Source: an uncultured bacterium
Lineage (GTDB): Bacteria > Verrucomicrobiota > Lentisphaeria > Victivallales > UBA1829
DNA: 64,000 bases
Direction: 5' to 3'
NCBI GenBank assembly: GCA_902778895.1
Contig: CACYZF010000005.1
Coordinates: 124,001 to 188,000 of the forward strand
Shown: positions 7,662 through 26,677 of the stretch, in pieces
Numbering within the stretch: position 1 is the first letter of the stretch
Layout of the letters: the number at the start of each line of letters is the position of its first letter
Notes under the pieces: generated by a model
Told to the model about the DNA's origin: nothing
Seen by the model: only the letters and a program-made list of their open reading frames with translations
The model's database searches: none
Translations under genes and position numbers: made by a program

Positions 7662-7688
7662 GGCTGACCCTCCGGCGTTCAAAAAGAG

Positions 7689-9518
7689 TTACCGCTTCAT
7701 CACGGCGATGGCCGTCTGGACGTTGCCGAACGGCGCGCTCACGTGGATGCCGCGGACGGCGGTCCGGATGGCATCGACGGCCTCGCGGGCGATGGCGATG
7801 CCCTCCAGACGCTGTTCTTCGCGCGTTTCGGGGCGTGCCATGCGTTCCATCACGGAATCGGGGACGACCACGCCGGGCACCTCGTTCTTCATGAACTCGG
7901 CGTTGCGGAGGCTGGCGAGCGGCCAGATGCCGGCGATCACCGGGACGGAGCCGTCGGCGAGCTCGGGGACGGCTTCGATGAAGCGCAGGAGCGGGGCGGT
8001 GTCGAAGACCGGCTGGGTCACGACGGCCTCGGCTCCGGCGTCGATTTTCTCCCGGATGCGGCGGAGTTCGCGCTCCATGTCGATGGCGTTCGGGTCCGCC
8101 CCGACGAGGCAGAACGCGGCAGTCTGTTTGCCGATGGACTTGCCGCCGAAATCGACGCCGCGGTTCAGCGCGGCCTGCACCTTCACGGCGGCGATGGAGT
8201 CGAGGTCGAACACGCCGGATGCGAACGGGTAGTCGCCGAGCTTCGGCGGGTCGCCGGTGATGAACAGGATATTGCGGATGCCCATGGCGGCGCAGCCGAG
8301 CAGGTCGGCCTGAATGCCGATCACGTTCTTGTCGCGGCAGCAGCAGTGCAGGACGGTCTCGATGCCGACTTCCTGCTGGATCTTGATCGCGGTCACGATG
8401 GTGGAGACGCGGGAGCTGGCGCGCGGGCCGTCCGGGATGTTGATGACGTCGAATCCGGCCTCGGCGCAGACTTTCGCCTTGGCGATGGTGGTGTCGAGCA
8501 GGTAGCCCTGCGGCGGCACGATCTCGACCGCGTTCACCCACTTACCGGAGGCGAGCTTCGCGGCGAAGGAGCTTTTTTCGGCGGCGGGGACCGGATCCAG
8601 AAGCGGAACGGAGGGTTCGGACGGCGCGATCTCGACCACGTGGGCGTGTTTCGCGAGCGGGCTCACGCTGCGCGCCATGTCGGCGATGTGCTCGGGCGAG
8701 GTGCCGCAGCAGCCGCCGATGCCGCGTACGCCGAGCTGGGCGAAGCGCATGGCGTAGGTCGTGAAATACTCCGGACTGCACATGTAGAGCATGCGGTTGT
8801 CCACGCTGCGCGGACTGCCGGCGTTGGGCTGGGCGATCACGGGGAATTTTTTATCGATCAGCGGCAGGACAGTTTCGAGCGCGCGGAGCATCGAGCCGGG
8901 GCCGCTGCAGCAGTTGAGGCCGAATGCGACCGGCTGGACCGGGGATGCTGCGATGTGTTCCAGAATGGCGGAGACCGGTTCGCCTTTGGCAGTTTCCGCA
9001 TTCTCGTCCAGCGCGAAGCTGAGCACGAACGGCACGCCGTCCGCGAACGCGGCGGCTTTCAGCGCCAGGTCGAGGTCGGCGAGAGTGGCAAGCGTCTCGA
9101 ACATCAGGAAATCGGGCGCGGCCTTCGCGAGCACGGAGACCTGTTCGGTGAGGATTTCGAGCGGGTTGAGGTACGACGGGAGTTCGCCGACGGGGCCGAC
9201 GGACGCGGCGACCATGGCGTTATCTCCCGCCACCTCGCGCGCGAGCTTGACGGCAGCTTCGTTGATCGCGGCGGTCTGTTCGGCGAGGCCGAATTTCATG
9301 AGCTTGGCGCGGTTCGCACCGTAGGAGTTGGTCGTGAGGACCTCCGCTCCGGCGTCGAGGTACGCCGTATGGATGGCGCGGATCACGTCGGGCCGGGCGA
9401 GGCAGAGGTTTTCGAAGGAGAGGTTGACGAAGAAATTCCGCCGGTATATTTCGGTGCCCATCGCGCCGTCGAAGATCACGATGCGGTCGTGCAGGGCCTG
9501 CTGAAGAGTCTGTGACAT
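7689..9518 (-). CDS. Bifunctional homocysteine S-methyltransferase / methylenetetrahydrofolate reductase
   Basis: A 609-residue fusion like Bacillus YitJ. The N-terminal half is a Pfam S-methyl_trans domain: start FDGAMGTEIY, the zinc-ligand regions FGLNCCSGPG (about 200) and GGCCGTSPEHI (about 267). The C-terminal half is an FAD-dependent methylenetetrahydrofolate reductase, beginning about 310 with EIVPPQGY and containing DGPRASSR, CCCRDKN and ITGDPPKLGDYP. The pair would make 5-methyl-THF and transfer methyl to homocysteine, or feed methyl-THF to the neighbouring MetH. It has its own promoter (9598-9625) within the end of metH, and btuFCD follow it. MetF activity is likely. Whether the N-terminal half is active without B12 cannot be read from sequence. 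Confidence 0.92.
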   Translation of the reverse strand: MSQTLQQALHDRIVIFDGAMGTEIYRRNFFVNLSFENLCLARPDVIRAIHTAYLDAGAEVLTTNSYGANRAKLMKFGLAEQTAAINEAAVKLAREVAGDNAMVAASVGPVGELPSYLNPLEILTEQVSVLAKAAPDFLMFETLATLADLDLALKAAAFADGVPFVLSFALDENAETAKGEPVSAILEHIAASPVQPVAFGLNCCSGPGSMLRALETVLPLIDKKFPVIAQPNAGSPRSVDNRMLYMCSPEYFTTYAMRFAQLGVRGIGGCCGTSPEHIADMARSVSPLAKHAHVVEIAPSEPSVPLLDPVPAAEKSSFAAKLASGKWVNAVEIVPPQGYLLDTTIAKAKVCAEAGFDVINIPDGPRASSRVSTIVTAIKIQQEVGIETVLHCCCRDKNVIGIQADLLGCAAMGIRNILFITGDPPKLGDYPFASGVFDLDSIAAVKVQAALNRGVDFGGKSIGKQTAAFCLVGADPNAIDMERELRRIREKIDAGAEAVVTQPVFDTAPLLRFIEAVPELADGSVPVIAGIWPLASLRNAEFMKNEVPGVVVPDSVMERMARPETREEQRLEGIAIAREAVDAIRTAVRGIHVSAPFGNVQTAIAVMKR

Positions 9519-9597
9519 GAGGTGTTTCCGCTGGATTGAGGCGGGAGAACGGGATTCCGCGGCCGCCGTTTGTTCAATAATAAAAACTCAATCAAAT

Positions 9598-9625
9598 AAT
9601 ATGCCGTCTTTTTTCTATTTTTCAA
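9598..9625 (-). promoter_or_regulatory. Internal promoter for homocysteine methyltransferase-btuFCD
   Basis: TTGAAA (9620-9625) and CATATT (9598-9603) spaced by 16 bases on the minus strand. It overlaps the last codons of metH, suggesting the downstream genes can be expressed separately from metH. Confidence 0.5.
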
Positions 9626-12600
9626 GTCGTTTGGCGGGGAAAGTTGACTGCGACAGCAGGACTTTCATGCGCTCGACGGAGAATCCTCGGGCTTCGGCGA
9701 GCGCGGCGATCTGGTCGTCGCCGATCGGGCCGAGCGCACGGTAATCCGCCCTTGGATCGGGGATCACGAAGGCGCAGGTCGAGGAGGACGGCGACATCAT
9801 GAAATTCTCGGTGAGTTCCACAAATCTATCCTGAATGGGGAACAGGTCGAGCAGATGGAATATCTCGCGTTTGAGACTGTGGTCGGGCAGGACCGGATAA
9901 CCGGGCGCGGGCGCGATGCCGGACGGCGGATCGGACTCTTCCCGCCAGCCCCAGAAATACGTGGAAATCCAGTCGAAAAGGGCCGACGCGGCGGCGTCCG
10001 CCAGGAAGTTCGCGAGCGTGCAGTCGAGCAGAGAAACGTAGTCGTCGCCGGGCGTTTCCGGGACCGATACGGACACCACGAACATGCCGAGCCAGTCGCC
10101 GATGAAGTCCGCGAGGGAACGGCAGTCGCCGGTTTGGGCGCGCGGGAACGTGATGACCGCGTAGTCCCCGACGCCGTCCTCGCGCAGCGTCGCGTGGTGA
10201 CGTGTGGAAACCTTGAACGTGTTGCAGTCCAGGCGTTCCGCCGGGAAGATGCCTCCCCAGGACCAGATACTGAATTTTGCTTCGGCGAGGCGCTTTTTCG
10301 CGTCGTCGATGAGGTTTCCGGCGGCCTCGGACGGGGTTTTCCATGCACGGGCGAACGCATCCCAGTCGAGTCTGCCGGCGAGTTCGGATGCGGAGAAACC
10401 TCTCCCGAAGCTGCTGTCAAATCCATCAGGATCTTCCTGCACAACGCGCGGGACGGGGCAGAACGGTTTTTCACGGGAGGCTTTCGCGCAGGCTTCCGCG
10501 TAGGGGATGAGCTCGGGAACGGCGCGTTTCGCGGCCTTTCCTGTCAGTTCGTCGTAGAACCCGCGCAGGGATTCAAGGTAAGCGCCGCGTTTATCCGGGT
10601 TCATGAGCGTGTTCACCACGACCGCGGAATCGGAGGCGTCCGTGGTGTGGATGACCGGGCCGGAGTAGAGCGGCTGGAGTTTCAGCGCGGTGTGCAGCGC
10701 CGAGGTGGCGGCGCCGCCGACTAGGATCGGGATCTTCAGGCCGCGCCGCTCGAATTCGGCGACCGTGCGAGCCATTTCGTCGAGCGAGGGAGTGATAAGG
10801 CCGCTGAGGCCGACGAAATCGGCGTGCTCGCGTTCGGCGGCGTCGGCGATCTCGTTGGCCGGGATCATTACGCCGAGGTCGTGGATCGCGCAGTTGTTGC
10901 ACTGGAGTACGACCGACACGATGTTTTTGCCGATGTCGTGCACGTCGCCCTTGACTGTGGCGAACACGCCGACGGGGCATTTCGCGCCGGACGAGGCGGA
11001 TTTCGAGGCTTCGATCACGGGCATCAGCACGGCGACCGCGCGCTTCATCACGCGGGCGGTCTTCACGACCTGCGGCAGGAACATCTTGCCCGCGCCGAAC
11101 AGCTCGCCGGTCTTCCGCATGCCGTCCATGAGCGGGCCTTCGACGATTGCCATCGGGTCCGGGTACGCCGCGAGGGCTTCCGCCATGTCGGCGTCGACGA
11201 AGGAGTCGTCTCCTCGCACGAGCGAAGCGGCGATGCGTTCCGCGAGCGGGAGCGAACGCCATTCGGGGGCAGTTTCCGCGTCGGGTTTCGAGGTCGCGCC
11301 CGAGCTCTTCATGGACGCGGCGAGTTCGAGAAGGCGTTCCCCTGCGCCGGGCGAGGTGTTGAGCACGACCGCCTCGACGGCGTCGCGGAGGTCGGCGGGC
11401 AGCATGTCGTAGTTGCCGAGCTGGGCGGCGTTCACGATGCCCATGGTCAGGCCGGCGTCGATGGCGTGCTTCAGGAAAACGGTGTGGATCGCGCCGCGGA
11501 TGAGGTCGTTTCCGCGGAACGAGAATGAAACGTTGCTGATGCCGCCGCTGATGCCGCAGAGCGGGAAGCGCCGGTGGAGTTCGGCGACGGACCGGATGAA
11601 GTCGGCGGCGTAGTCGTCGTGTCCGGCGATCCCGGTCGCCACGGCGAATACGTTCGGGTCCAGCACGATGTCCTCCTCCGCGAATCCGGCCTGTTCGGTC
11701 AGGAGCTTCACGGAGCGCGAAAGCGTTTCGATGCGGCGTTCGTAGCGGTCCGCCTGGCCCTTCTCGTCGAACGCCATCACGAGGACGGCCGCGCCGAGGC
11801 GGCGGATCTCGCGGGCTTTCGCGAGGAACGGCTCTTCGCCTTCCTTGAGGGAGATCGAGTTCACGATGGCGCGTCCCTGCACGCAGCGGAGCGCGGTGCG
11901 GACGACCTCCCAGTTCGAGGAGTCGATCATGAACGGGACGGCGGCGATGTCGGGTTCGCCTGCGGCGTACAGCAGGAAGCGCTTCATGGCGGCGGGCGCG
12001 TCGAGCAGGGCGTCGTCCATGTTGACGTCGATGATGGCCGCGCCGTTTTCGATCTGGTGGCGCGCGATTGCCATCGCGCCGGGCATGTCGTCCGCCTTGA
12101 CGATGTTCAGGAACTTGCGGGACCCGGCCACGTTGGTGCGTTCGCCGATGTTGATGAAATTCTTGTCACGGGAGGCGGTGAACGCGTTGAGACCGGAGAG
12201 GCGCAGGAGACGCGGCTGAGGAGAGGGGACGCGCGGCTTCACGTCGTCGAGCGCCTTCGCGATGGCCGCGATGTGGGCGGGCGTCGTGCCGCAGCATCCG
12301 CCCGCGATGTTGAGCTGTCCGGCGTCCGCCAGCGAACGGATCACGGCGGCCATCTGGTCGGGCGTCTGGGTGTATTTCCCCTCGGCGTCGGGCAGTCCGG
12401 CGTTCGGGTGCGCGCTGACCAGGAAGGGGGATTTCGCCGCCATTTCGGCGATGTGCGGACGGAGTTCCTCCGCGCCGAGCGCGCAGTTGAAGCCGACGGA
12501 GAAAAGGCAGCGGGCATGGGAGACGGAGATCAGGAACGCCTCGGCGCACTGTCCGGAGAGCAGGCGTCCGCTGGCGTCGCTGAGCGTGGCGGAGACCATG

Positions 12601-13223
12601 ACCGGGACGTCGCGTCCGCGGGATGCCATGGCTTCCTCGGCGGCGAAGAGCGCGGCTTTGCAGTTCAGCGTGTCGAACACGGTTTCGATCAGGATGATGT
12701 CCGCCCCTGCGTCGAGCATCGCCTCCATGCATGTGCGGTAGGTCGCGGCAAGCTCGTCGAACGTGACGTCGCGGGCGGCGGGGTCCTCCACGTCGGACGA
12801 CATGCCGGCGGTGCGTCCGGTGGGACCGACGCTCCCCGCGACGAGGCGCGGTTTGGACGGATCGCGGGCGGTGAATTCGTCGGCGACTTCGCGTGCGTTG
12901 TGCGTCCCGGCGAACGCCAGGTCGTACACGCGGTCCTGCAGACCGTAGTCAAGCTGGGAGAAATAATTCGAGTTGAACGTGTTGGTCTCGATGATGTCCG
13001 CTCCGGCCTCAAGATAGGCGCGGTGCACGGATTTTACCAGGTCGGGACGCGTGATGTTCAGCACATCGTTGTCTCCGGTCAGCGGGACCGGATGCGACGC
13101 GAACTCCCCGCCGTTGAAATCCGCGGCGGTCGGGTGTCCGGCCTGAAGCATCGTGCCCATGGCGCCGTCCAGGACAAGTATTTTTTTCGCGGCGAGAGAT
13201 CGGATTTCCTGTATGGTGAGCAT
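9615..13223 (-). CDS. metH: Cobalamin-dependent methionine synthase
   Basis: Transfers the methyl of 5-methyl-THF to homocysteine through methylcobalamin. Full length (1202 residues) with all four MetH modules: homocysteine/zinc domain (LDGAMGTMLQ at the start, GGCCGTTPAH near 308), pterin domain (NIGERTNVAGSRKF onward), B12 domain with the DVHDIG cobalamin-histidine motif near 760, and a C-terminal AdoMet reactivation domain (APAPGYPVLPDHSLK). Two adjacent ATGs exist. The one at 13223 has a 6-base gap to GGAGG and is preferred to 13226 (3-base gap). The next genes encode a methyltransferase/MTHFR and a BtuFCD-like importer. No cobalamin or SAM riboswitch was seen in the 77 bases between the terminator at 13301 and the start. 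Confidence 0.97.
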   Translation of the reverse strand: MLTIQEIRSLAAKKILVLDGAMGTMLQAGHPTAADFNGGEFASHPVPLTGDNDVLNITRPDLVKSVHRAYLEAGADIIETNTFNSNYFSQLDYGLQDRVYDLAFAGTHNAREVADEFTARDPSKPRLVAGSVGPTGRTAGMSSDVEDPAARDVTFDELAATYRTCMEAMLDAGADIILIETVFDTLNCKAALFAAEEAMASRGRDVPVMVSATLSDASGRLLSGQCAEAFLISVSHARCLFSVGFNCALGAEELRPHIAEMAAKSPFLVSAHPNAGLPDAEGKYTQTPDQMAAVIRSLADAGQLNIAGGCCGTTPAHIAAIAKALDDVKPRVPSPQPRLLRLSGLNAFTASRDKNFINIGERTNVAGSRKFLNIVKADDMPGAMAIARHQIENGAAIIDVNMDDALLDAPAAMKRFLLYAAGEPDIAAVPFMIDSSNWEVVRTALRCVQGRAIVNSISLKEGEEPFLAKAREIRRLGAAVLVMAFDEKGQADRYERRIETLSRSVKLLTEQAGFAEEDIVLDPNVFAVATGIAGHDDYAADFIRSVAELHRRFPLCGISGGISNVSFSFRGNDLIRGAIHTVFLKHAIDAGLTMGIVNAAQLGNYDMLPADLRDAVEAVVLNTSPGAGERLLELAASMKSSGATSKPDAETAPEWRSLPLAERIAASLVRGDDSFVDADMAEALAAYPDPMAIVEGPLMDGMRKTGELFGAGKMFLPQVVKTARVMKRAVAVLMPVIEASKSASSGAKCPVGVFATVKGDVHDIGKNIVSVVLQCNNCAIHDLGVMIPANEIADAAEREHADFVGLSGLITPSLDEMARTVAEFERRGLKIPILVGGAATSALHTALKLQPLYSGPVIHTTDASDSAVVVNTLMNPDKRGAYLESLRGFYDELTGKAAKRAVPELIPYAEACAKASREKPFCPVPRVVQEDPDGFDSSFGRGFSASELAGRLDWDAFARAWKTPSEAAGNLIDDAKKRLAEAKFSIWSWGGIFPAERLDCNTFKVSTRHHATLREDGVGDYAVITFPRAQTGDCRSLADFIGDWLGMFVVSVSVPETPGDDYVSLLDCTLANFLADAAASALFDWISTYFWGWREESDPPSGIAPAPGYPVLPDHSLKREIFHLLDLFPIQDRFVELTENFMMSPSSSTCAFVIPDPRADYRALGPIGDDQIAALAEARGFSVERMKVLLSQSTFPAKRLEK

Positions 13224-13300
13224 CATGAGCCTCCGTTGGATTCAGTATTTCGTTATGTCAAACCCCGCGGGGAGTTAAGCCGGACAGAACCGTCTGCCGG

Positions 13301-13383: not shown

Positions 13384-13995
13384 TCAGTCTTTCGACTTGA
13401 TCGAAATATCGTCCGGATCTGCGGGAGCCGGTTTGTCAAGCGGTTCCTGGCTGACCACGGATACGCCGTTTTTGTCCACAGTGCGGATGTCGGAAGTCTT
13501 TGCGTTTGCATCCGTAACGGGAACTGCCGGCAGATTGAGCACCTGGTCGTTGAGTTCGCGTGCGACATCCTGACGTTTGCGCTGGGTGGCTTCCTGTTCG
13601 ATGGCGGACTCTTCGGGATCCGGGAGCGGCTGGAGGTTGATCACGATGTTGCTCTCGGTGAACCGCCACGCGCCGTTGGTGAGAAGTCCCGTGGCAGGCA
13701 GGATGAAGATGCTTCCGAGCGCATCGAGCTTTCCGGTGGAGCTGAGTTCGCTGTCAGCGGCGTAGTAGGCGGTACGGTATCCAGGCTTGTACGCCGTGAT
13801 GAGGAGCGCGTCTCTGGTCGGCACTTCAATGTACATCGGCGAAAGCAGATGGTATTCCACGCCGTTCGCAATGACGGCGGCGTCACTCGGCGTGACCGTG
13901 ACGGCGACGATCTGTTCGCCGCGCGCAAAGAAGGAGCAACCGGAGGTGATTGTCATGACAAGAGCGGCAAACACAGCAAGGAACATGTATTTCAT
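13384..13995 (-). CDS. Predicted lipoprotein with PEGA-like domain
   Basis: A 203-residue envelope protein of unknown function. The signal MKYMFLAVFAALVMTITSGC ends in a lipobox cysteine at 20. The next 60 residues (VTVTPSDAAVIANGVEYHLL, then IEVPTRDALLITAYKPGYRT) follow the PEGA pattern of a short beta domain that displays a value and closes with a Y-K-P-G-Y turn. A charged C-terminal tail rich in Glu, Asp and Pro follows. It is a single-gene unit between a promoter (14042-14070) and a terminator (13301-13337), divergent from the U32 operon. PEGA domains are thought to bind or scaffold surface components; no enzyme motif is visible. Confidence 0.7.
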   Translation of the reverse strand: MKYMFLAVFAALVMTITSGCSFFARGEQIVAVTVTPSDAAVIANGVEYHLLSPMYIEVPTRDALLITAYKPGYRTAYYAADSELSSTGKLDALGSIFILPATGLLTNGAWRFTESNIVINLQPLPDPEESAIEQEATQRKRQDVARELNDQVLNLPAVPVTDANAKTSDIRTVDKNGVSVVSQEPLDKPAPADPDDISIKSKD

Positions 13996-14175: not shown

Positions 14176-14203
14176 TTGACAAATGACGCGGCGGGGTTAC
14201 ATT
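14176..14203 (+). promoter_or_regulatory. Promoter for the U32/glycosyltransferase operon
   Basis: TTGACA (14176-14181) followed after 16 bases by TACATT (14198-14203), about 65 bases before the first gene. It is the only clear promoter between the divergent lipoprotein gene and this operon. Confidence 0.55.
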
Positions 14204-14268
14204 AAGGATGAAGAATAGAACGATACATCAATCATCCACACGCGTTTTATGCGGACCCTTTTATAAAA

Positions 14269-15429
14269 ATGAGCTCAAAAAAGATTGCCAGAACAAAATT
14301 CGCAGTCGGCCACTATCTGACGGAAAAACCGGACGACCCTGCATCTTTCGCCGAACTTGCGAAACGGTTTGCCCCCAGGCTTCGCGAGGTCTATTTCCCG
14401 TGGCCCGGCCTCTCGAACGCACGCGCCAAAGTCTATGACAAGCCGGACGATGAAGAACGCATTGTGGCCGACCTGAAATACTGTCGGGAACACGGCATGA
14501 AGCTGGACATCCTGGCAAATGCGACCTGCTATGCCGAGAAGTCGTTCACGGAGGATCAGCGGCTTCAGATCGTCGGGATCATCAAGCATCTGGACGAACT
14601 CGGCCTGTATCCTGAAATCGTCACGACCACGTCGCCTTACATCGCGAAAGTCTTCAAGCTGAATTTCCCCGATATTGAGGTCCGGGCGTCCGTGAACATG
14701 CGCCTGCGCAATACGCTCGCTCTGGAATATCTCGCGCCCCTCTACGACTCCTACTATATCTGCCGCGACGTTCAGCGCGATCTGCCGATGTTCCGGAAGA
14801 TGGCCGCCTGGTGCAGGGACCACGGCAAGAAACTGTGCATGCTGGCGAACAGCGGATGCGTGCGGAACTGCCCGTGGCAGGTCTTCCATGAGACGCTTCT
14901 TTCGCACGGATTCACGTTCTCGTTTCCCGAAATGGAATACCAGAATATCGACCTCGTGTGCAATAAGCTTTTTGCCCAGAAAAAGAAGCTGTCGGATTTC
15001 CTGCGGTGCACATGGATCCGTCCCGAAGACATTCATGTGTTCGAGCCGGAGCTTGAGACGATCAAGCTTTCGACCCGCGAGGCAAAGTTCCCGATGGAAA
15101 TCGCGGAAGCATACATCAACGCTTCCTACGACGGCAATCTGCTGCGTCTGATGGATCCCTATCATGGACTCGGATTCCGTCCGAACCGCGTCGACAACAA
15201 GTCGTTTCCGGCCGACTGGGTGACCAGCGGCATTGCCGGAAAATGCGCGGACAACTGCACGCACTGCGGAAAGTGCGAACAGGTCCTGGAGCAGATTTTG
15301 AAATATGATATCAAACCGGGTGCCCGTCTGGACGGTTTTTCCCTGGTGCACTCGTTCGATTTGCTGGCGCCGAAGAAAGAAAACAATTCGGAACTGGGGG
15401 TTGCGGGCAGGAAAGGAACAAAATCATGA
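14269..15429 (+). CDS. U32-peptidase-like Fe-S protein, paralogue 1
   Basis: A 386-residue protein resembling the U32 (COG0826) family, a TIM-barrel-type group that includes the Fe-S proteins UbiU/UbiV and TrhP/RlhA and has doubtful peptidase activity. Shared features with its two downstream paralogues: EVYFPWPGL near residue 40, a VRASVNMRL strand, then GCVRNCPW (Cys197, Cys201) and a C-terminal C-x3-C-x2-C-x2-C (326, 330, 333, 336), which looks like an iron-sulfur site. No signal peptide, so cytoplasmic. It ends ATGA with paralogue 2. No good Shine-Dalgarno precedes the ATG at 14269. Substrate unknown; the glycosyltransferase partners suggest a role in surface glycan synthesis. Confidence 0.75.
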   Translation: MSSKKIARTKFAVGHYLTEKPDDPASFAELAKRFAPRLREVYFPWPGLSNARAKVYDKPDDEERIVADLKYCREHGMKLDILANATCYAEKSFTEDQRLQIVGIIKHLDELGLYPEIVTTTSPYIAKVFKLNFPDIEVRASVNMRLRNTLALEYLAPLYDSYYICRDVQRDLPMFRKMAAWCRDHGKKLCMLANSGCVRNCPWQVFHETLLSHGFTFSFPEMEYQNIDLVCNKLFAQKKKLSDFLRCTWIRPEDIHVFEPELETIKLSTREAKFPMEIAEAYINASYDGNLLRLMDPYHGLGFRPNRVDNKSFPADWVTSGIAGKCADNCTHCGKCEQVLEQILKYDIKPGARLDGFSLVHSFDLLAPKKENNSELGVAGRKGTKS

Positions 15430-16595
15430 AATGGCCATCCTACCAATTGAGTCAGAAATCTGTTCCGGTCCAGAATCTGCGCCGGATTCAGCTCGGACGT
15501 CCCTCCTCTGACAAAAAACGCAGGTTCGCATTCGGTTATTTCTTTGGAAAACGGTCGGGCTTCTCCTTCCGCGATCTGGCCGAAAAGTATGCGCCGTTCC
15601 TGCAGGAAGTCTATTTCCCGTGGCCCGGACTGCTTTCCGCACGCGAGATCAAGGGCGATCCCCAGCCCCTCAGGAAACAGGTCATCGACGACATGCGGTT
15701 CTGCCGCTCGAAAGGGATGCGTCTGGACCTGCTGATTAACGCGACCTGTTACGGGGACAAGGCCCTGACCGCGGAACAGCGGCAGGACTACTACGCGAAC
15801 CTGAAGGAAATGGACCGGGAGGGCATCCTTCCGGAGATCATCACCACCACTTCGCCTTTTATCGCGGTCATCACGAAAAAGTTCAACGCGTCCATCGACC
15901 GCCGGGCGTCCGTGAACATGCGCCTGAACTCCACGCTCGCCATGGAATACGTGTCGGAGGAGTTTGATTCGTTCTATCTCTGCCGCGACCTCCAGCGCGA
16001 TCTGCCGACCGTGAAGATGTTTGCCGAATGGGCCAAAAAGAACGGCAAGAAGATCTGCATGCTGGCGAACAGCGGTTGTCTGCGCTACTGCCCGTGGCAG
16101 ACGTTCCACGAAACCCTGCTGTCGCACGATTTCGTGCATATTTTCAATGAATCGACGAAACTCAAGATGCCGACGACCCTGTGCGTCGGGCTTGTCCAGT
16201 CCAAGCAATATGAAGAGATCCTCCGCGGGTCCTGGATCCGCCCGGAAGACCTGCACCGGTACGATCCGTACGTTTCCGTCTTCAAGCTTTCCACGCGCGA
16301 GGCCGACCGCCCCGACCTGATCCTGAAGGCGTATACGTCCGGCGAATTCGATGGCGATCTGATTCAGCTGCTGGACCCGAACTATTCGTATTTCATCCGT
16401 CCGAACCTATTCGACAACAAGGCGTTTCCGAAGGAATGGAGCGAGGGGAAAATCGCCGGAAAATGCGCCATCGACTGCACGCATTGCGGGAAATGCACGG
16501 AAGTCCTGAAGCTCATCTACAAACGCGACCCGGACCTGCCGAATTTTTCCCAGTATTCTGTGCCGGACAAACCGCTTATCATGCCCGAGAGCTGA
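15426..16595 (+). CDS. U32-peptidase-like Fe-S protein, paralogue 2
   Basis: A 389-residue paralogue of the preceding protein, overlapping it by ATGA. It keeps EVYFPWPGL, ASVNMRLNSTLAMEY, GCLRYCPW (Cys218, Cys222), SWIRPEDLH and the C-terminal cluster CAIDCTHCGKC (347, 351, 354, 357). It differs by an N-terminal extension of about 20 residues (MKWPSYQLSQKSVPVQNLRR). The even spacing of the six cysteines in all three copies implies the same cofactor, probably [4Fe-4S]. Three diverged copies in one operon suggest a heteromeric complex, as UbiU-UbiV form a pair, or three related substrates. No function can be fixed from sequence. Confidence 0.75.
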   Translation: MKWPSYQLSQKSVPVQNLRRIQLGRPSSDKKRRFAFGYFFGKRSGFSFRDLAEKYAPFLQEVYFPWPGLLSAREIKGDPQPLRKQVIDDMRFCRSKGMRLDLLINATCYGDKALTAEQRQDYYANLKEMDREGILPEIITTTSPFIAVITKKFNASIDRRASVNMRLNSTLAMEYVSEEFDSFYLCRDLQRDLPTVKMFAEWAKKNGKKICMLANSGCLRYCPWQTFHETLLSHDFVHIFNESTKLKMPTTLCVGLVQSKQYEEILRGSWIRPEDLHRYDPYVSVFKLSTREADRPDLILKAYTSGEFDGDLIQLLDPNYSYFIRPNLFDNKAFPKEWSEGKIAGKCAIDCTHCGKCTEVLKLIYKRDPDLPNFSQYSVPDKPLIMPES

Positions 16596-16621
16596 TGCCC
16601 GGCTCTTTGAGAGGATTCCCC

Positions 16622-17701
16622 ATGAACAAGCAGACACAGCACGTCAGAAAGAAATTCGCGGTCGGACATTTCTTCGGCAACAGCAAATGCGATTTCCGGG
16701 ATGTTGCCGGACGCTATCAGGATTACATTCAGGAAGTGTTCTTTTCCTGGCCGGAGCTGAAAAATGCCCGAAGGATGGTCGGCGATACGGAAAAGCTGAA
16801 AGATATCGTCACCGAGGATATGCGCTGGGCGCGATCCAAAGGCTTTTCGCTCGACCTGCTCATCAACGCCATGTGCTACGGCGAGGAGGCGTTCACTGCG
16901 AAGCAGCACGCCCGCGTGATCGGTGCGCTGTCGGACATGGACAGCAGGGGCATCCTGCCGGAGACCGTCACGGTCATTTCGCCGTATCTGGCGCAGATCA
17001 TCAAGCACGATTTCCCGAAGATCGACATCCGGGCGTCCGTGAATGCGCGTGTGGACAGCATCATTTCCATGGAATACATGGCGCCGATGTTCGATTCCTA
17101 CTACATCAGCCGCGACCTTCAGCGCGATCTGCCCACGCTCCGGGCGTTCCGCAAATGGACGCGCGACCACGGCAAGAAGCTGTGCATGCTCGTGAACGGA
17201 AGCTGCCTGCGGAACTGCCCGTTCCATTTCTTCCACGAGACGATCAATTCGCATGGTCTGAGCCGGACCGTCGAGGAAACGAAGCGCACGGGCATCCAGC
17301 CGTCGCGTTGCATCAACATGTACATGAAGAAGCAGTACGAGGAGATCCTGCGTTCATCCTGGATCCGTCCGGAGGACCTGCATTATTATGAAGACGAGGT
17401 CGACGTGATCAAGCTTTCGACCCGGGCCGTCCCCGATCCGGAACGCATCATCCGCGCGTACTGCGAACGCAGCTACGACGGCAATCTGCTGGGGCTGCTC
17501 GATCCGGTTTACACGTACTTTTTCCGGCCGTACATCCTCGACAACAAACGTTTCCCGGCGGACTGGGCGGAGAGCGGCATCGGCGGCAAATGCGCGACCA
17601 GCTGCACGCATTGCGGACGCTGTACGGAGGTGTTGTCCAAAGTCATGGTCGTCGATCCTTCGTTCGGGAAGGTCAGAGCCGCGGATTATCATTTTGTCTG
17701 A
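16622..17701 (+). CDS. U32-peptidase-like Fe-S protein, paralogue 3
   Basis: A 359-residue third paralogue, the most diverged: EVFFSWPEL replaces EVYFPWPGL, and the internal motif is SCLRNCPF (Cys195, Cys199). The C-terminal cluster CATSCTHCGRC (324, 328, 331, 334) is intact. I take the ATG at 16622, 26 bases after the previous stop, because the alignment with the paralogues (KKFAVGHFFG) begins there. A longer frame reads back into paralogue 2. The glycosyltransferase genes follow 44 bases later. The shared HGKKLCMLVNG and SSWIRPEDLH segments show the same fold as copies 1 and 2. Confidence 0.75.
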   Translation: MNKQTQHVRKKFAVGHFFGNSKCDFRDVAGRYQDYIQEVFFSWPELKNARRMVGDTEKLKDIVTEDMRWARSKGFSLDLLINAMCYGEEAFTAKQHARVIGALSDMDSRGILPETVTVISPYLAQIIKHDFPKIDIRASVNARVDSIISMEYMAPMFDSYYISRDLQRDLPTLRAFRKWTRDHGKKLCMLVNGSCLRNCPFHFFHETINSHGLSRTVEETKRTGIQPSRCINMYMKKQYEEILRSSWIRPEDLHYYEDEVDVIKLSTRAVPDPERIIRAYCERSYDGNLLGLLDPVYTYFFRPYILDNKRFPADWAESGIGGKCATSCTHCGRCTEVLSKVMVVDPSFGKVRAADYHFV

Positions 17702-17745
17702 AGATGAAAGCATAAACAGGGCTTTCCGGAAGAACGATACTCTTT

Positions 17746-18822
17746 ATGAATGAGAATGACCTGAATCACACGCCGCTTTTCACCGTTGCTTTGGCCGGAT
17801 ATCAGACCGAGCCATATCTGCAGAAAGCTCTGGACTCCATCGCGAACCAGACATTCCGCGATTTCGAGGTGATCTGCTATGTGGAGGAGTGTACCGACCG
17901 TTCGCTGGAGATCTGCCGGGCTATGGCGGAACGCGATTCCCGCTTCAAGGTCGCGACCGGCCCGAAAAGCGGAAGCGGAGGTCCTTCGCGCAATTACGGG
18001 ATGGATCATGCTTCCGGGGAGTATATCGTGTTTGTGGATGGCGACGACTGGATTCTGGACAATATGCTGGAAAAACTGGCGCAGAAGCTTGCACAAACCG
18101 GTCCTCTTGATATTTTGGCCTTTGCCTGCGTCATAACGCAAAACGAAAATTTTGATCCGGTCAATGCCCCGAAACATACCAATTTTTCTGTTCAGGATTC
18201 CGGTATTGTGTTCTCCGGACCGGATGCCATCAGGCGTTCCGGCCGGAATGGCGGCAGATTCTTCGCATATTCGATCCTGAATGTTTATCGGACGGCTTTT
18301 CTGCAGGAAAACCATCTTCATCAGCCCAAGGGAATCCTCGAAGATTATGCATGGATGCCGCGCGTCTGGTATCAGGCGAAACGAATGGCGTATTTGGACG
18401 AGGTTTTTTATGTTTACCGGCGCAGGGCCGATTCGCTCACGACGGAGGCATCCGCCCGCGTTGTCTACAATATTGCGGAAATCGTTTTGCCGAGCTTGTT
18501 CGATCTGGCATTCGAGAATACGGTTCCTGAGGACATCCTCAGGATCTGGAGCAACCAGTGGTTTTCCATGCTTTACTGGTTCCTGTTTCACCCCGTCAGT
18601 TCCAGAAAAATAACGGACAAAGACAGACGAAATGCTTTGAACGCCCTGTTTGCAGAGAAAAGCAACAAGGAACGTTTTATGCATCTCATACAATATGCTT
18701 CCCGTCCGAAACGTTTTGCTTGTCCCCTGATTCTGCTTTCCGCAAAAGGGATTCAGTTCCCCGCCAAGGTGTTTTTCCGCAAGTTCTATTATCCGATGAT
18801 CGAAAGGAAAAACAGATCATGA
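17746..18822 (+). CDS. Family 2 glycosyltransferase
   Basis: A 358-residue GT-A fold enzyme that transfers a sugar from a nucleotide donor. The N-terminal domain has FTVALAGYQTEPYLQKALDS, QTFRDFEVICYVEECTDRS and the metal-binding DGDD (98-101) in VFVDGDDWIL. An acidic acceptor-side motif EDYAWMPRVWY follows near residue 205. No membrane helices, so it acts at the cytoplasmic face. The stop overlaps the next start by ATGA. It is a paralogue of the third transferase of this operon (20027-21112). Donor and acceptor are unknown. Confidence 0.85.
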   Translation: MNENDLNHTPLFTVALAGYQTEPYLQKALDSIANQTFRDFEVICYVEECTDRSLEICRAMAERDSRFKVATGPKSGSGGPSRNYGMDHASGEYIVFVDGDDWILDNMLEKLAQKLAQTGPLDILAFACVITQNENFDPVNAPKHTNFSVQDSGIVFSGPDAIRRSGRNGGRFFAYSILNVYRTAFLQENHLHQPKGILEDYAWMPRVWYQAKRMAYLDEVFYVYRRRADSLTTEASARVVYNIAEIVLPSLFDLAFENTVPEDILRIWSNQWFSMLYWFLFHPVSSRKITDKDRRNALNALFAEKSNKERFMHLIQYASRPKRFACPLILLSAKGIQFPAKVFFRKFYYPMIERKNRS

Positions 18823-20030
18823 AATCCGTTTGTTCCGTGGAATGCGGGAAAAAAGTCCTGGTTTACTATTATGAAATCCGATCAGAATTGGGCGGAAGCG
18901 AATATCTGCCGCTTCTTCTCGTCGCCGAACTTCAGCAAAGAGGATACTCCGTCACTCTGGCGCTGGCCTGGGAATCCCAACTGGAACCGGCGGCAAAGCG
19001 TTATCATGTTGATTTGGACGTCGAAAAAGTCAACGTGGTGACGACTAAACCGAAGAATCGCTTTCTGCAGAAATTGGATTCCATTCTGCCGTTTTACAGG
19101 GTCTGGCAACTGAAAAAACTGGCGAAACAGGCGGACATTTGCATTTCCGCGGCGAACATGATCGATTTCGGAAAGCCGGCCCATCATGTCGTCTATATCT
19201 TGAGGCTTTTCGGAGACAACGCCTTCTGTGATTTCTTCCAGCACAGACCGCCGCTCTCCGGGGTGCCCCGCCTCAAACGGCGAATCCGCACGGTGCTCGC
19301 CGAATCGATTCTGCGCCCGTTGCTTGGGGTGCGTTCGACAAGAAAGATCCTGGCCGACCAACGGGAACGCATCTACGTTCCCTCCCAATATGTCGCCGAC
19401 ACCATGCGCGCTTTTTACGGTCCGTTCAACTGCACGGTGTTCTATCCGCCCACATCGTTCGATATTCCTCCGATGGAAGTCGAACGCGACCCGATGCGCG
19501 TCATCTATTTGGGACGTATCCAGCAGGAAAAAGGCGTTTTGAATATCGTTGAGATCGTGAAACGGGCCCGGGAGCTTTCCGCCCTTGATATCCATCTGCA
19601 TCTTGCAGGCCCATTGACGCCGGGGGCTTATACGGAAAAGTTGAAACAGCTCGCCGCGGAAAAAACGTGGATTGAGCTGATCGACCCTGTCTACGGCAGG
19701 GAAAAAGCCGCATTCCTGCTCAGCGGAACCTATGCCATTCATGCGGAACGCGACGAGGCGTTCGGCATCTCAATCACGGAGTATCTGAAGGCCGGATGCA
19801 TCCCGATCGTTCCGGACGAAGGCGGCACCCCGGAAGTCGTCTGCAATCCCGCCCTGGTATATCATACGAACGAAGATGCTGCGCGGATCCTGACCCGTCT
19901 TCTCACCGATGAGGCATTCCGTCAGGAACAGCTGAACCGTTGTAAAGAACGTGCACAGGCATTTACTTTTGAATGTTATATGAAAACACAACACATAATC
20001 CTCGACCGGATACTGGAAGAGCCGCTATGA
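18819..20030 (+). CDS. GT4-type glycosyltransferase
   Basis: A 403-residue GT-B fold retaining glycosyltransferase (GT4/GT1 group). The N-terminal lobe opens KVLVYYYEIRSELGGSEYLP, where the Gly-Gly loop is typical. The C-terminal lobe has VIYLGRIQQEKGVLNIVEIV and the donor-binding E-x7-E motif in DEAFGISITEYLKAG (Glu313 and Glu321). The ATG at 18819 overlaps the previous stop, and the frame ends ATGA into the next gene. Between two GT2 enzymes, it would add one sugar to the same growing chain. Nucleotide-sugar specificity is not readable. Confidence 0.87.
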   Translation: MKSVCSVECGKKVLVYYYEIRSELGGSEYLPLLLVAELQQRGYSVTLALAWESQLEPAAKRYHVDLDVEKVNVVTTKPKNRFLQKLDSILPFYRVWQLKKLAKQADICISAANMIDFGKPAHHVVYILRLFGDNAFCDFFQHRPPLSGVPRLKRRIRTVLAESILRPLLGVRSTRKILADQRERIYVPSQYVADTMRAFYGPFNCTVFYPPTSFDIPPMEVERDPMRVIYLGRIQQEKGVLNIVEIVKRARELSALDIHLHLAGPLTPGAYTEKLKQLAAEKTWIELIDPVYGREKAAFLLSGTYAIHAERDEAFGISITEYLKAGCIPIVPDEGGTPEVVCNPALVYHTNEDAARILTRLLTDEAFRQEQLNRCKERAQAFTFECYMKTQHIILDRILEEPL

Positions 20031-21112
20031 AGCCTTTTTTCTCCTTTGTCGTTCCCTGCTGTGATGTCGAAGCGTATATTGAGGAATGTTTTCAATCCAT
20101 TCTGAGTCAGTCGTTTCAGGAATGGGAATGTATCCTCGGCATCGAAACTTCGAAAGACAGAACCGAGGAAATCATCCGCGAAAAGACTGCTGGAGATTCC
20201 CGGTTTAAAATTTTTACCAGTCCGCGTACAGGGTCGTGCTCCGCGTCCCGCAATACCGGGACCGACATGGCGCAGGGGGAATATATTATCTTCCTGGACA
20301 GCGACGACACCATTGCGGACGGCTGTCTGGAACGTCTCCATGAAAAGATCATGGCGAACCCCGGCGCCGACCTCTATCCGTGCGCGATTGTCGTAAACAA
20401 TGAGATCAACGGCAAAAGCGAACTCCGGGACAACTACGGTCAGGACGCGCCCGCGGAACTGACAGGTTCGGAGGCCGTTCTTTATCTGGATCGCCGTCTG
20501 CATGGCGATCTCTGCCCGATGCTCCAGCTGACCGTCCATCGCCGCGAATTCCTTGTGGATCATGACCTGAAATGCATCCGCGGCCTGCGGCATCAGGACA
20601 GCGAATTCTCCCCGCGGGCGCTTTATCTGGCCAAACGCGTCGTCCCGCTTCACGAACCTTACTACCTCTACCGAATCCGCCCGAATTCCGTCCAGACAAA
20701 GGCGAAAGGCGCGGACTATTTCATGAAGGACTGGTCCACCATCACGAAATCCCTGCTGGCCTTCTACGACAAAATCTCCCGTGAGGAAGGGTTCGACGCA
20801 CGTGTGGTCCAGTGCTGGAGCCGCCAGTGGATTTCCCGTATGAATTACATGTGGTTTTCGCAAAATGCGCAGAGAATGATTCCCCGCGAAAAACGTGTGG
20901 AATGGCTGAATTACATCTTTGAAGACGGTTTCGATTCCTATGACCGCATGATGAAATACAGTTCGTTCCCGCAGCGCGTTGCGGCATTCCATGTGCGGAT
21001 GTTCATCAAACATCCCTCGCTGCGATGGGCCGCCGAACTCTTTTTCCGCCTCTATTTTATGGTTTTACTCCGCAGACAGTCGGAGAGTCTTTCTACATCG
21101 ATTTCAAATTAA
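20027..21112 (+). CDS. Family 2 glycosyltransferase
   Basis: A 361-residue GT2 enzyme, paralogous to the 17746-18822 product. Motifs: FFSFVVPCCDVEAYIEECFQ, SQSFQEWECILGIETSKDRT and the DXD-type DSDD (91-94) in IIFLDSDDTI. A downstream GLRHQDSEFSPRALYLAKR segment corresponds to the acceptor-binding region. It is the last gene of the six-gene operon and is followed by two terminators. Paralogous first and third transferases suggest two similar linkages in one repeating unit. Substrates unknown. Confidence 0.85.
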   Translation: MKPFFSFVVPCCDVEAYIEECFQSILSQSFQEWECILGIETSKDRTEEIIREKTAGDSRFKIFTSPRTGSCSASRNTGTDMAQGEYIIFLDSDDTIADGCLERLHEKIMANPGADLYPCAIVVNNEINGKSELRDNYGQDAPAELTGSEAVLYLDRRLHGDLCPMLQLTVHRREFLVDHDLKCIRGLRHQDSEFSPRALYLAKRVVPLHEPYYLYRIRPNSVQTKAKGADYFMKDWSTITKSLLAFYDKISREEGFDARVVQCWSRQWISRMNYMWFSQNAQRMIPREKRVEWLNYIFEDGFDSYDRMMKYSSFPQRVAAFHVRMFIKHPSLRWAAELFFRLYFMVLLRRQSESLSTSISN

Positions 21113-21131
21113 GGGAGCTTTCTTCCCCGGC

Positions 21132-21186
21132 GAAAAAACGTCCGCTTCCGAACGGTGTATTCCGTGGAAGCGGACGAACTTTTTTT
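21132..21186. terminator. Bidirectional terminator between the GT operon and GH97 gene
   Basis: Arms GTCCGCTTCC (21140-21149) and GGAAGCGGAC (21166-21175) form a perfect 10-bp stem. A T-run follows on the plus strand (21180-21186) and the A-run before it (21133-21138) gives a T-run on the minus strand, so it can stop both converging transcripts. Confidence 0.85.
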
Positions 21187-21194
21187 AGCGATCG

Positions 21195-21219
21195 GCCTGC
21201 TTGTTCGGCAGGCTTTTTT
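21195..21219 (+). terminator. Second intrinsic terminator after the GT operon
   Basis: GCCTGC (21195-21200) pairs with GCAGGC (21208-21213), followed directly by TTTTTT (21214-21219). It is a back-up stop on the plus strand, 7 bases before the end of the convergent GH97 gene. Confidence 0.8.
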
Positions 21220-21226
21220 GCGGCGC

Positions 21227-23278
21227 TTACTTCTTGATGAAGCGGAAGGAGAAGCCGCCGCGGCCGATCATCCGGACGGTGATGACGTCGCCGGCTTTTG
21301 CCGTGCCTTCGGTGATGTCCCAGGCGCGCGGATCGTCGGGCTTCACGTCGCCGTTGACGAAGTAGCTGGAATCGACGTCCTTGCCGTCCGCGATCTTGCG
21401 GAAGGAATAAGTGTCGCCGGTCTTGCCGGGGACGACGAACTTGACTTCGCGCGTCTCGTTCTTGCCGTTGATGCCGCCGACGTACCAGGTGTCGCCTTTG
21501 CGGCGGCCGAGGATCACGAAGTCGCCCGGTTCGCCGCCGAGGTACTTGGTGTCGTCCCATGTGGTCGGGAGGCCGGCGATGAAATCCTTCACCTTTTCGG
21601 GGAGGGCGCGGAACGCGGACGGGCGGTCGGCCATGTGCTGGCAGGCGGATTCGAAGACGACCGGGAGCGCGAGTTCATGCGCGTGGGAGGTGAGGTGCTT
21701 GTGCTGGGAGTTGGTGAACGCGGTGGGGGTGTAGTCCATCGGGCCGACGGTGTTGCGCGTGAAGGGCAGCGTGGTGTTGTGTTCGGCCGCGGGTTCGGTC
21801 ATCATGGGGTGGTTGTTGTATTGTTCCGCGCCCCAGACGCCTTCCATGGACATGAGGTTGGGGTAGGTGCGGGACCAGCCGCGCGGGAGCGTGGCGCCGT
21901 GGAAGTTGACCATGATCTTGTGGGGAGCGGCGTCCTTCAGGATGTCGACGTAGTACTGCATCATGCTCTGCTTGTCGCTCTCGAAGAAGTCGATCTTCAC
22001 GCCCTTGACGGTCTTGTCGGTGAGCCAGGCGAATTCCTTTTCGCGCGTCTCATGGGTGTTGAAACGGTCGCGCGGGCCGCCGCCGACGTAGTTGTGCTTT
22101 CCGCCGGAGTTGTACCACAGCCAGACGCCGACGTTCTTCTCCTTGGCGAGCGCGAGGGCGTCGTCGATGTTGCCTCCGTTGCCCATCACGTCCCATTCCC
22201 AGTCGATCAGGACGTTCGGCCACTTCATTTCGGAGGCGAGCAGGATGTAGTCCTTGACGATCTGGTAGTCCTTGCTGCCGTGGTTGTATGCCCAGTAGAC
22301 CCAGGAGGCCACGCCGGGTGTGATCCAGGAGACGTCGTCCACCGCGCATTCGGGGGCGAGGTCGTCGATGAGCGTGGATTCCACGATGTCGGCGAGCGTG
22401 CCGATGATGACGCAGCGCCACGGGGATTTCCACGGGAGCGTGGTCGTCGGGTTGACCGCGCCCTGGTTCGCGCCTTCACCGGGATCGGGATAATGCGTGG
22501 TGAAGGTCACGCCGTTGTCTTTGACTTCGCTCTGCAGATAGGTGCCGCAGTAGGTGCCGTCGAACCAGGTCTCGGAGAGGAGGCCCCAAGTGGACTTGTC
22601 GGCGGAGTTGAAGAGAAGCGGATAGTTCCAGTTGCGGATGCGGTTGTTGTTGCCGCCGCGCCCGCCGCGGCCGCCCGGACCGCGATTGCCGCCGGGGCCG
22701 CCCTGCTGCTGGGGCTGGGGCTTGAGTTCATCGGCCGTGTACGCGAGATAGCGGTCTTCGTAGCTGGTCACGCGGCGCTGCATGCGGAAGCCGTCGGTCA
22801 GCGGGAACACGAACGACGTGGTCTCGCCCTGGAATTCGACGTCGCCGGAGCCGCCGATGTTGTAGCGGAACGCAAAGGAATCGCTGCCCGCGCGGACGAT
22901 GACGCCGATCTGGTTTTCGCCTTCGCCGAAGACGAGCGTCTTTTCGTTCATCCGGACGGTGCGTTCGGAGCGCTTGCCGTTGACCGCCGTGTACTTCTCG
23001 GTTACGAGCGCGACGTTGTTGCCGGAGGGGAGCTGCCCCTTGAGCTTGAGCTGCGAGAAATCGTAGTTCGCCTTGTTCGACTTCAGGCCGAGGCGGACCT
23101 GGAAGACTTCCTTCGCGTTGCGCTCCACGCGGAGCACGTTGCCCTCGTCGAGGTACACGCGGATCGTCTTGTCCGCGTCCGGGGAGGTCAGAAATGGATC
23201 GGCGGCGGAGCAGAGTCCGGCGGCGAGGAAGACCGCGGCGCAGGTGAGAGCCGCTTTCATGGAGAGACTGAACTTCAT
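21227..23278 (-). CDS. Secreted GH97 family alpha-glycosidase
   Basis: A 683-residue exported glycoside hydrolase of family 97, which includes SusB-like alpha-glucosidases and alpha-galactosidases. The signal peptide is MKFSLSMKAALTCAAVFLAA with cleavage near LCSA-A. Family landmarks: PWRCVIIG, YWEWD-like LIDWEWDVM, GVKIDFFESD, NFHGATLPRGWSRTYPNLMS and MEGVWGAEQYNNHP. The Asp of KIDFF (about 430) sits where retaining members have the nucleophile, so a retaining, galactosidase-like mechanism is more likely than the inverting SusB type; this is inference. A Gly/Pro/Gln-rich linker of about 25 residues near 190-215 interrupts the N-terminal domain. Single gene with its own promoter (23338-23365). 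Confidence 0.9.
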   Translation of the reverse strand: MKFSLSMKAALTCAAVFLAAGLCSAADPFLTSPDADKTIRVYLDEGNVLRVERNAKEVFQVRLGLKSNKANYDFSQLKLKGQLPSGNNVALVTEKYTAVNGKRSERTVRMNEKTLVFGEGENQIGVIVRAGSDSFAFRYNIGGSGDVEFQGETTSFVFPLTDGFRMQRRVTSYEDRYLAYTADELKPQPQQQGGPGGNRGPGGRGGRGGNNNRIRNWNYPLLFNSADKSTWGLLSETWFDGTYCGTYLQSEVKDNGVTFTTHYPDPGEGANQGAVNPTTTLPWKSPWRCVIIGTLADIVESTLIDDLAPECAVDDVSWITPGVASWVYWAYNHGSKDYQIVKDYILLASEMKWPNVLIDWEWDVMGNGGNIDDALALAKEKNVGVWLWYNSGGKHNYVGGGPRDRFNTHETREKEFAWLTDKTVKGVKIDFFESDKQSMMQYYVDILKDAAPHKIMVNFHGATLPRGWSRTYPNLMSMEGVWGAEQYNNHPMMTEPAAEHNTTLPFTRNTVGPMDYTPTAFTNSQHKHLTSHAHELALPVVFESACQHMADRPSAFRALPEKVKDFIAGLPTTWDDTKYLGGEPGDFVILGRRKGDTWYVGGINGKNETREVKFVVPGKTGDTYSFRKIADGKDVDSSYFVNGDVKPDDPRAWDITEGTAKAGDVITVRMIGRGGFSFRFIKK

Positions 23279-25816: not shown

Positions 25817-26677
25817 TCAGGATTCTTTGTCTTCCTGTTCGATGACGTCGCCGCCGTCTTCGATCAGGCCGCCGCGGTCTGGGGTGCAGACGGGGATTCC
25901 GGTCTGGGCTTCGAGCTGTTTCCTGGCTTCTCCGGCGATGTCGCCGCCGCGTTTCGCGATCCGTGCGCTTTCCTCGAATCCACGCGGATTTTTCTGTTTG
26001 GAAAGCTCGGTGGCCGAAGCTTCCGCGAGCATGTTCAGGATGAGCTCCAAATTGCTCATGTTGTCGCGCAGATTTTCCTTACGGAGACCTTTCAGGTTTT
26101 TGTATTCCCGCGTTGTCATGCCGGACCATGCTTTGGAAATGATGTCCGTGAGAGATGCGTATTCAAATCCGCTGTGGACTCCGCTGCGATCCCACTCGTC
26201 GGTAAGTTCTTTCCTGACTTCAATCGTTTTCAGGCGCTGGTTGATCCAGCTCTCGGAATAACCTTTCCTTCTGTAGGTGTAAAGCGCACGGGAAATGGCC
26301 AGTTCCGGATCTTCGATTTCCTCCAGGCGTTCTTCTCCGACTTCAGCCAGCCACCGTTTGAACGGTTCGGCCTTGGGAGACGGGATGGACTGGATGATAC
26401 GCAGAATGCCTTTCGTGTCGGCGACATCGGTAAGACGCAATTTGCCGTCTTCCGCTGGAAGTTTCAACCTGTTACAAATTGTAACGGGTTCGCAACTTTC
26501 TTTGGATAAGCGGTTTTTGAGAACGCGCCAATAGGTTGAAGCCCGTTGTGTGTCCGGCTGGTCCGTCAGAATCCCGACGACGTCCACGACCGAATAAAAC
26601 CACGTTCCGGCTTCATCGTCCCAGACGGACCGGATGCGTTTGTGTTCAAACAGCTTGATGGCACTATGCTTCGTCAT
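25817..26677 (-). CDS. BRO-N domain protein (phage antirepressor / DinD-like)
   Basis: A 286-residue protein of the BRO-N group, which includes prophage antirepressors and DinD-like proteins. The N-terminal 100 residues (KHSAIKLFEHKRIRSVWDDE, WFYSVVDVVGILTD, YWRVLKNRLSKE) form the DNA-binding BRO-N fold. The C-terminal part (GFEYASLTDIISKAW, LTNLMLAEA-like LELILNMLAEASATELSKQK, NPRGFEESARIAKRGG) matches the companion domain found in many gut-bacterial copies. No other phage genes are nearby. It starts 25 bases after the DegT gene stop without a clear Shine-Dalgarno. Likely a mobile-element remnant or a free-standing regulator. Confidence 0.75.
   Translation of the reverse strand: MTKHSAIKLFEHKRIRSVWDDEAGTWFYSVVDVVGILTDQPDTQRASTYWRVLKNRLSKESCEPVTICNRLKLPAEDGKLRLTDVADTKGILRIIQSIPSPKAEPFKRWLAEVGEERLEEIEDPELAISRALYTYRRKGYSESWINQRLKTIEVRKELTDEWDRSGVHSGFEYASLTDIISKAWSGMTTREYKNLKGLRKENLRDNMSNLELILNMLAEASATELSKQKNPRGFEESARIAKRGGDIAGEARKQLEAQTGIPVCTPDRGGLIEDGGDVIEQEDKES

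Follow-up and report, generated by a model that had tools for sequence, protein, structure and literature searches.

What do three adjacent copies of an unusual protein do beside a row of glycosyltransferases (GTs) in an uncultured member of the Lentisphaeria? The question is raised by six head-to-tail genes (A, B, C, GT2, GT4 and GT2; 14269-21112, + strand) in a 64,000-nucleotide stretch of contig CACYZF010000005.1, referred to below as the window. The host genome is 3.24 Mb in size and 94% complete (tool estimate), and its close relatives come from rumen samples. A previous reading of this DNA, made from the sequence alone, took A, B and C for U32-like iron-sulfur (Fe-S) proteins, a three-part complex of which may help to make or modify a surface glycan. 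By profile comparison and structural modelling, the three proteins are a distinct, distant branch of the U32 superfamily (IPR001539) with a TIM-barrel fold. As to their function we propose, tentatively, that the trio is an O2-independent Fe-S heteromer of this branch which would hydroxylate a precursor that the GT2, GT4 and GT2 products glycosylate where these are present. U32 oxidases are one of the few known routes for the insertion of oxygen without O2; to our knowledge, their known substrates so far are quinone and RNA only.

The genes of the operon are as follows.

14269-15429, + strand: gene A, 386 amino acids (aa), Fe-S sites predicted in the core and at the C-terminus (open reading frame, ORF; family alignment; AF2 model)
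15426-16595, + strand: gene B, 389 aa, paralogue (ORF; ATGA overlap with A; separate clade in the tree)
16622-17701, + strand: gene C, 359 aa, paralogue (ORF; AF2 model; tree, sister of A with 94/75 support)
17746-18822, + strand: glycosyltransferase family 2 (PF00535, E 1.4e-22)
18819-20030, + strand: glycosyltransferase family 4 type (PF00534, E 1.9e-17; ATGA overlap with the preceding GT2 gene)
20027-21112, + strand: glycosyltransferase family 2 (PF00535, E 7.2e-27; ATGA overlap with the GT4 gene)

The GT assignments agree with the sequence-only reading, as do the ATGA overlaps, which are found at the A/B, GT2/GT4 and GT4/GT2 junctions; spacers of 26 nt and 44 nt separate B from C and C from the first GT2 gene.

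The three paralogues and the U32 superfamily

Pairwise identity among A, B and C is 46-48%, and a search of the host genome revealed no copy of the family beyond them. Scans against Pfam and NCBIfam gave no U32 match (PF01136), nor any other significant match, for any of the three, and a PDB sequence search with A1 returned chance-level matches only. The relationship appears at the level of profiles. The family profile (A3) aligned directly with U32 (E. coli UbiU, UbiV, TrhP, RlhA and relatives) over 138 columns (Prob 84.7, E 6.7e-6), and with a set of phage homologues over the full length of 321 columns (hhalign; Prob 99.9, E 3.4e-32); the latter in turn matched UbiU/TrhP/RlhA-type U32 proteins (profile comparison; Prob 96.8, E 2.3e-10). 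Phage members exceed the Pfam U32 cut-off of 22.4 bits (47.6, 40.0 and 28.3 bits), as does a distant member of the branch, L077 (27.5 bits), and of the 41 proteins in A3, 13 have a PF01136 match (E<=0.1). For both A and C, the top PDB match of the AF2 model (pTM 0.75 for A; pLDDT 84 and pTM 0.86 for C) is the U32 protein 5d88 (E 1.3e-8 and 4.8e-10, respectively), with other barrels trailing at ~2e-5; residues 197-239 of A are of low quality in the model. It is because of the bridge formed by the phage profiles, and because 5d88 is the best match for two models, that we assign the trio to U32 as a distant branch. Both lines confirm what the sequence-only reading had seen here, namely three tandem, diverged U32-like paralogues, and A and C when modelled singly are predicted to have a U32-like fold.

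It is very improbable that these proteins resemble U32 in structure alone, as TIM barrels that bind zinc or scaffold clusters and catalyse no oxidation. The silence of Pfam and NCBIfam and the poorly modelled segment of A would suit such an explanation, but the E-values of the bridge (3e-32 and 2e-10) and the twofold appearance of 5d88 as top match argue against it. So does the conservation, complete or almost complete in bacterial and phage members, of C197, C231 and the pair K266 and R270, which correspond to KIEGR in U32.

Family relatives (E<=1e-3) were found in 47 of the 195 genomes of the phylum that were sampled. The cysteines of A are at positions 87, 190, 197, 201, 231, 326, 330, 333 and 336. 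In A numbering, C87, C197 and C201 are present in all 66 aligned members and C326-x3-C330-x2-C333-x2-C336 is kept in 59 to 61 of these; C87, C197, C201 and C231 are invariant in a second alignment of 41 diverse members, and all 16 proteins in an alignment of bacterial and phage members have the C-terminal four-cysteine motif. C190 occurs in all three paralogues, which possess C190-x6-C197, yet in only 43 of the 66 members. The sequence-only reading was right about conserved cysteines of the Fe-S type, while its figure of six was too low: the shared set comprises a core four and a C-terminal four.

In UbiV, a single [4Fe-4S] cluster is held by C39, C180, C193 and C197 (PMC6747719), and by analogy C87, C197, C201 and C231 are the likely ligands of a barrel cluster. 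The conservation of the four C-terminal cysteines leads us to predict that they hold a second cluster, which would give two per subunit; in A and C these cysteines draw weak ferredoxin matches in Pfam/NCBIfam. A radical SAM reading of C-x3-C-x2-C was rejected, since the motif is C-terminal, past the barrel, and the Pfam/NCBIfam matches include no radical SAM family. A plain peptidase lacking a cluster is likewise ruled out by the conserved cysteines, the family being of the U32 Fe-S type, in keeping with the sequence-only reading.

The trio shares with the U32 oxidases UbiU/UbiV, TrhP (P1/P2) and RlhA the U32 TIM barrel, remote homology and conserved cysteines. Its tandem arrangement also resembles the pairs formed by these proteins: UbiU-UbiV is a heterodimer with one [4Fe-4S] cluster in each subunit (PMC6747719), and TrhP1 and TrhP2 are both needed (PMC6599085). 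Unlike these oxidases, the trio has no Pfam U32 score, occurs as three copies adjoining GTs and carries the additional C-terminal C-x3-C-x2-C-x2-C, which is not among the published U32 motifs. The branch as a whole has a different cysteine set from theirs and a probable second cluster.

Phage relatives and the proposed reaction

A homologue of the family is present in 218 phage records, including RB69 and Thanatos. In RB69, EcS1, 92A1 and Thanatos-2 it is found together with sugar genes and a thymidylate synthase (TS)/dCMP-hydroxymethylase-like gene. Four of the five phages inspected have a chorismate mutase gene one to three genes downstream of the homologue (EcS1, E 5e-12; Thanatos-2, 8e-8; PM2, 3e-12; 92A1, by similarity), the fifth, RB69, having none at that place. 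The phage loci in which a U32-like gene (annotated 'peptidase') lies near a TS-family gene are the following.

L132, 6004-8373
L133, 3824-7391
L134, 6001-8212
L135, 3504-5668
L136, 3498-6681

The U32 'peptidase' of these T4-like phages (RB69p050 and its counterparts in EcS1, 92A1 and Thanatos) resembles the trio in its full-length homology, in the WIRPED, FK-x2-R and C-terminal four-cysteine motifs, and in having a sugar-transfer pathway alongside. It differs in its single copy, in the TS-family gene and chorismate mutase nearby, in sequence (about 20-24% identity) and in having phage DNA as the final acceptor. Two viral contigs carry further diverged members of the branch (L084:5971-7104 and L086:5998-7017), which have no Pfam U32 match.

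Prephenate, the product of chorismate mutase, is the oxygen donor in anaerobic ubiquinone hydroxylation and is required by RNA-modifying U32 proteins (PMC11574389). The chorismate mutase near the phage U32 gene therefore hints at a prephenate-dependent hydroxylation, and suggests prephenate as the source of oxygen for the phage base. The arabinosyl-5-hydroxycytosine phage locus is a case of oxygen insertion that is followed by glycosylation (PMC13390438). The authors of the Thanatos study offered no hypothesis on where the hydroxyl comes from (PMC12838424); elsewhere a TS-family 5-hodCMP synthase is held responsible for the hydroxyl in this type of phage DNA (PMC13390438), for which reason we dropped the idea of the phage U32 protein as sole cytosine hydroxylase. 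It is likely to be a partner in the hydroxylation step.

For the bacterial trio we infer cluster binding, a heteromer, hydroxylation, the use of prephenate, a functional link to the GTs and the nature of the substrate as follows. Each subunit would have one cluster site in the core of its TIM barrel, formed by Cys 87, 197, 201 and 231, and a second at the four C-terminal cysteines. A and B, together with C where it is present, would most likely act as a heteromer, by analogy with UbiU-UbiV and as TrhP1-TrhP2 also suggest. This heteromer would add a hydroxyl group to a precursor without O2, or carry out a related C-O redox step, with prephenate probably serving as the oxygen donor, and in species having the GTs, the neighbouring GT2, GT4 and GT2 enzymes would then glycosylate the hydroxylated precursor. 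Chorismate mutase and chorismate synthase, a prerequisite for the supply of prephenate, are present in the host genome, and the phage relatives with their chorismate mutase indirectly strengthen the idea of a hydroxylation. The surface-glycan role put forward in the sequence-only reading may be inferred from the linkage to the GTs, which is a loose one. A complete anaerobic hydroxylate-then-glycosylate pathway in bacteria, which combines a two-cluster U32 heteromer, oxygen from prephenate and decoration by GTs and whose evolutionary origin is the branch also present in the arabinosyl-5-hydroxycytosine locus of T4-like phages, appears unlikely in that full form.

The phage relatives also raise the prospect that the trio hydroxylates bases of tRNA, rRNA or DNA without O2, the closest family whose locus is known being the phage one, situated in a DNA-modification region; moreover, the characterised U32 oxidases target RNA (TrhP, RlhA) or quinone precursors. 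We regard this as improbable. Besides the trio, 10 of 13 genomes of the genus carry a canonical U32 gene of ~770 codons (RlhA-like length), so that RNA work is probably covered; the GT2/GT4 types better suit lipid, protein or polysaccharide acceptors; and the copy number of the trio family ranges from 2 to 5 across sister species. No PF01136 match was found in the host genome (G000), which may reflect an assembly gap, given the canonical gene in these relatives. Replacement of this gene by the trio in G000 is unsupported, as in those 10 of the 13 genomes the two occur side by side.

Conservation of the locus and the neighbours of its relatives

Within the genus the family is present in 12 of 13 genomes, with 2 to 5 copies. 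A and B are found in all ten loci compared in detail, C in six; all three GT types are likewise present in six, while a further locus (L006) has one GT. In the tree, A, B and C form separate well-supported clades with C as the sister of A (94/75), and A and B already occur together in the more distant G076; from the separate clades and this coexistence it follows that the paralogues have been kept, and not merely duplicated. In the closest relative, L001, the three proteins are 88-93% identical to those of the window (A 92%, C 93%) and a GH97 gene lies directly 3' of C. The link between GTs and trio is a loose one at the level of the genus.

Outside the genus the family gene is mostly single-copy, with ~31-42% identity to the trio and the same cysteines. 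The syntenic block of trio and GTs which the sequence-only reading suggested looking for across anaerobes does not extend to these genomes. Its concern that the homologues might be scattered singly applies there, and not within the genus, where A and B are constant and it is C, the GT set and the gene order that vary. Among the 23 loci sampled outside the trio-containing clade (39 rows, support 100/99; gene calls on high-GC DNA were made with a codon model), 22 encode an RdhA/QueG-like protein. This partner is 300-350 aa in length, possesses a C-x2-C-x2-C-x3-C site and is frequently present as three tandem copies; all 22 aligned copies match TIGR02486 (reductive dehalogenase) and match QueG weakly, and the relatives with a solved structure are QueG and reductive dehalogenases. 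A U32-branch gene is present in 28 of 28 genomes with a close partner copy, compared with 45 among the 195 sampled genomes as a whole (p ~2e-22 with no correction for kinship). Of the 38 U32-branch genes in partner-bearing genomes, 34 lie within 3 kb of an RdhA/QueG-like gene. IclR and LacI regulators, a rhamnosidase (GH106), DUF4838/GH67N and an EamA transporter are further neighbours. Unlike the trio, then, these single genes of Verrucomicrobiota and Lentisphaerota adjoin such a partner and regulators rather than paralogues and GTs. The loci in question are listed here.

RdhA/QueG-like gene with U32-branch gene: L048-L051, L054, L056, L058-L061, L063-L068, L070-L076

The RdhA/QueG-like family, unclaimed by Pfam models, travels with single U32-branch genes in both Lentisphaerota and Verrucomicrobiota.

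These neighbours, together with the sister species that do without the GT block, fit an ancestral catabolic job, that is, a redox step by which some compound of plant or host origin is degraded under anaerobic conditions. Elsewhere it would be carried out with the RdhA/QueG-like protein; here duplicated copies would have replaced the partner, and the GTs would be unrelated passengers. We consider this explanation doubtful for the trio itself. The partner is not found in the loci of the trio clade, and six genomes of the same genus have no close RdhA/QueG-like copies, one distant match aside; in addition, the GTs share the operon through ATGA overlaps here and follow the trio in several sisters. 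Elsewhere in the trio clade, outside the genus, L053 is located between a UDP-sugar pyrophosphorylase gene and, two genes on, a GT4 gene, L055 has an O-methyltransferase gene next in the 3' direction, and L057 has a DegT aminotransferase neighbour.

A number of observations nevertheless weigh against hydroxylation followed by glycosylation. The strongest are the GT-free sisters and the RdhA/QueG context, which speak for a catabolic redox function of the family as a whole: the GT block is missing from the sister species L001 and from L007 and L008, and most relatives are in loci of catabolic appearance, next to regulators and RdhA/QueG-like proteins. Where GTs are present their order varies (L004 and L009 differ), and they diverge faster (about 62-79% identity) than A and C (about 86-88%); no set of GTs like this one accompanies the family genes in the loci sampled outside the genus. 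Chorismate mutase is not adjacent to bacterial family members in the genomes checked. The phage 5-hydroxy-dCMP is credited to the thymidylate-synthase-family enzyme (PMC13390438), and the role of the phage U32 protein is itself putative. Finally, the trio family does not keep to the published U32 motif CX6CX15CX3/4C and has Cys 87, 197, 201 and 231 instead; UbiV likewise deviates from that motif, the first cysteine being upstream.

The branch is found in about a quarter of the sampled Verrucomicrobiota/Lentisphaerota genomes in addition to the phage records. Each of its three contexts (the trio with GTs, the single gene with an RdhA/QueG-like partner, and the phage gene with chorismate mutase) yields a testable guess at a substrate, and in combination they suggest that U32 chemistry extends well past RNA and ubiquinone.

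Other loci of interest include L077 (4693-7710), where genes for a methyltransferase and a type III polyketide synthase come after the more distant U32-branch gene; L078 repeats this three-gene layout, its neighbours being matched by similarity only. Searches of plasmids for the family gave no result. Tandem gene pairs with weak family similarity (E 1e-10 and 1e-5) occur at L079:9478-11600 and L080:9362-11498 in two genomes of another lineage; the pair gene scanned (L079) has no Pfam match.

Signals, flanks and other genes of the window

The features that surround the operon are given below.

14176-14203, + strand: possible sigma-70-type promoter, TTGACA-16-TACATT, upstream of A (consensus scan)
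21161-21174 and 21194-21214, + strand: likely terminator, two hairpins with T runs (hairpin scan)
13384-13995, - strand: divergent gene, 203 aa, 5' flank of the operon (gene call)
21227-23278, - strand: convergent GH97 gene, 3' flank of the operon (gene call)

The single promoter of the sequence-only reading is no better than chance, a simple scan of the region giving four such sites where 4.0 are expected. Its tandem terminators fared better: 15 sites with hairpin and T tail were found compared with 9.1 expected, and the pair at 21161-21214 fits a terminator.

Two other parts of the window deserve mention. On the - strand at 5842-13226, genes for a FecCD-type permease, a Peripla_BP_2 binding protein, a fused homocysteine methyltransferase/MTHFR and a 1203-aa MetH-like protein are consecutive, a row that looks like cobalamin uptake and methionine synthesis. 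A protein with a BRO-N domain (PF02498), a type frequently of phage origin, is encoded at 25817-26677 on the - strand.

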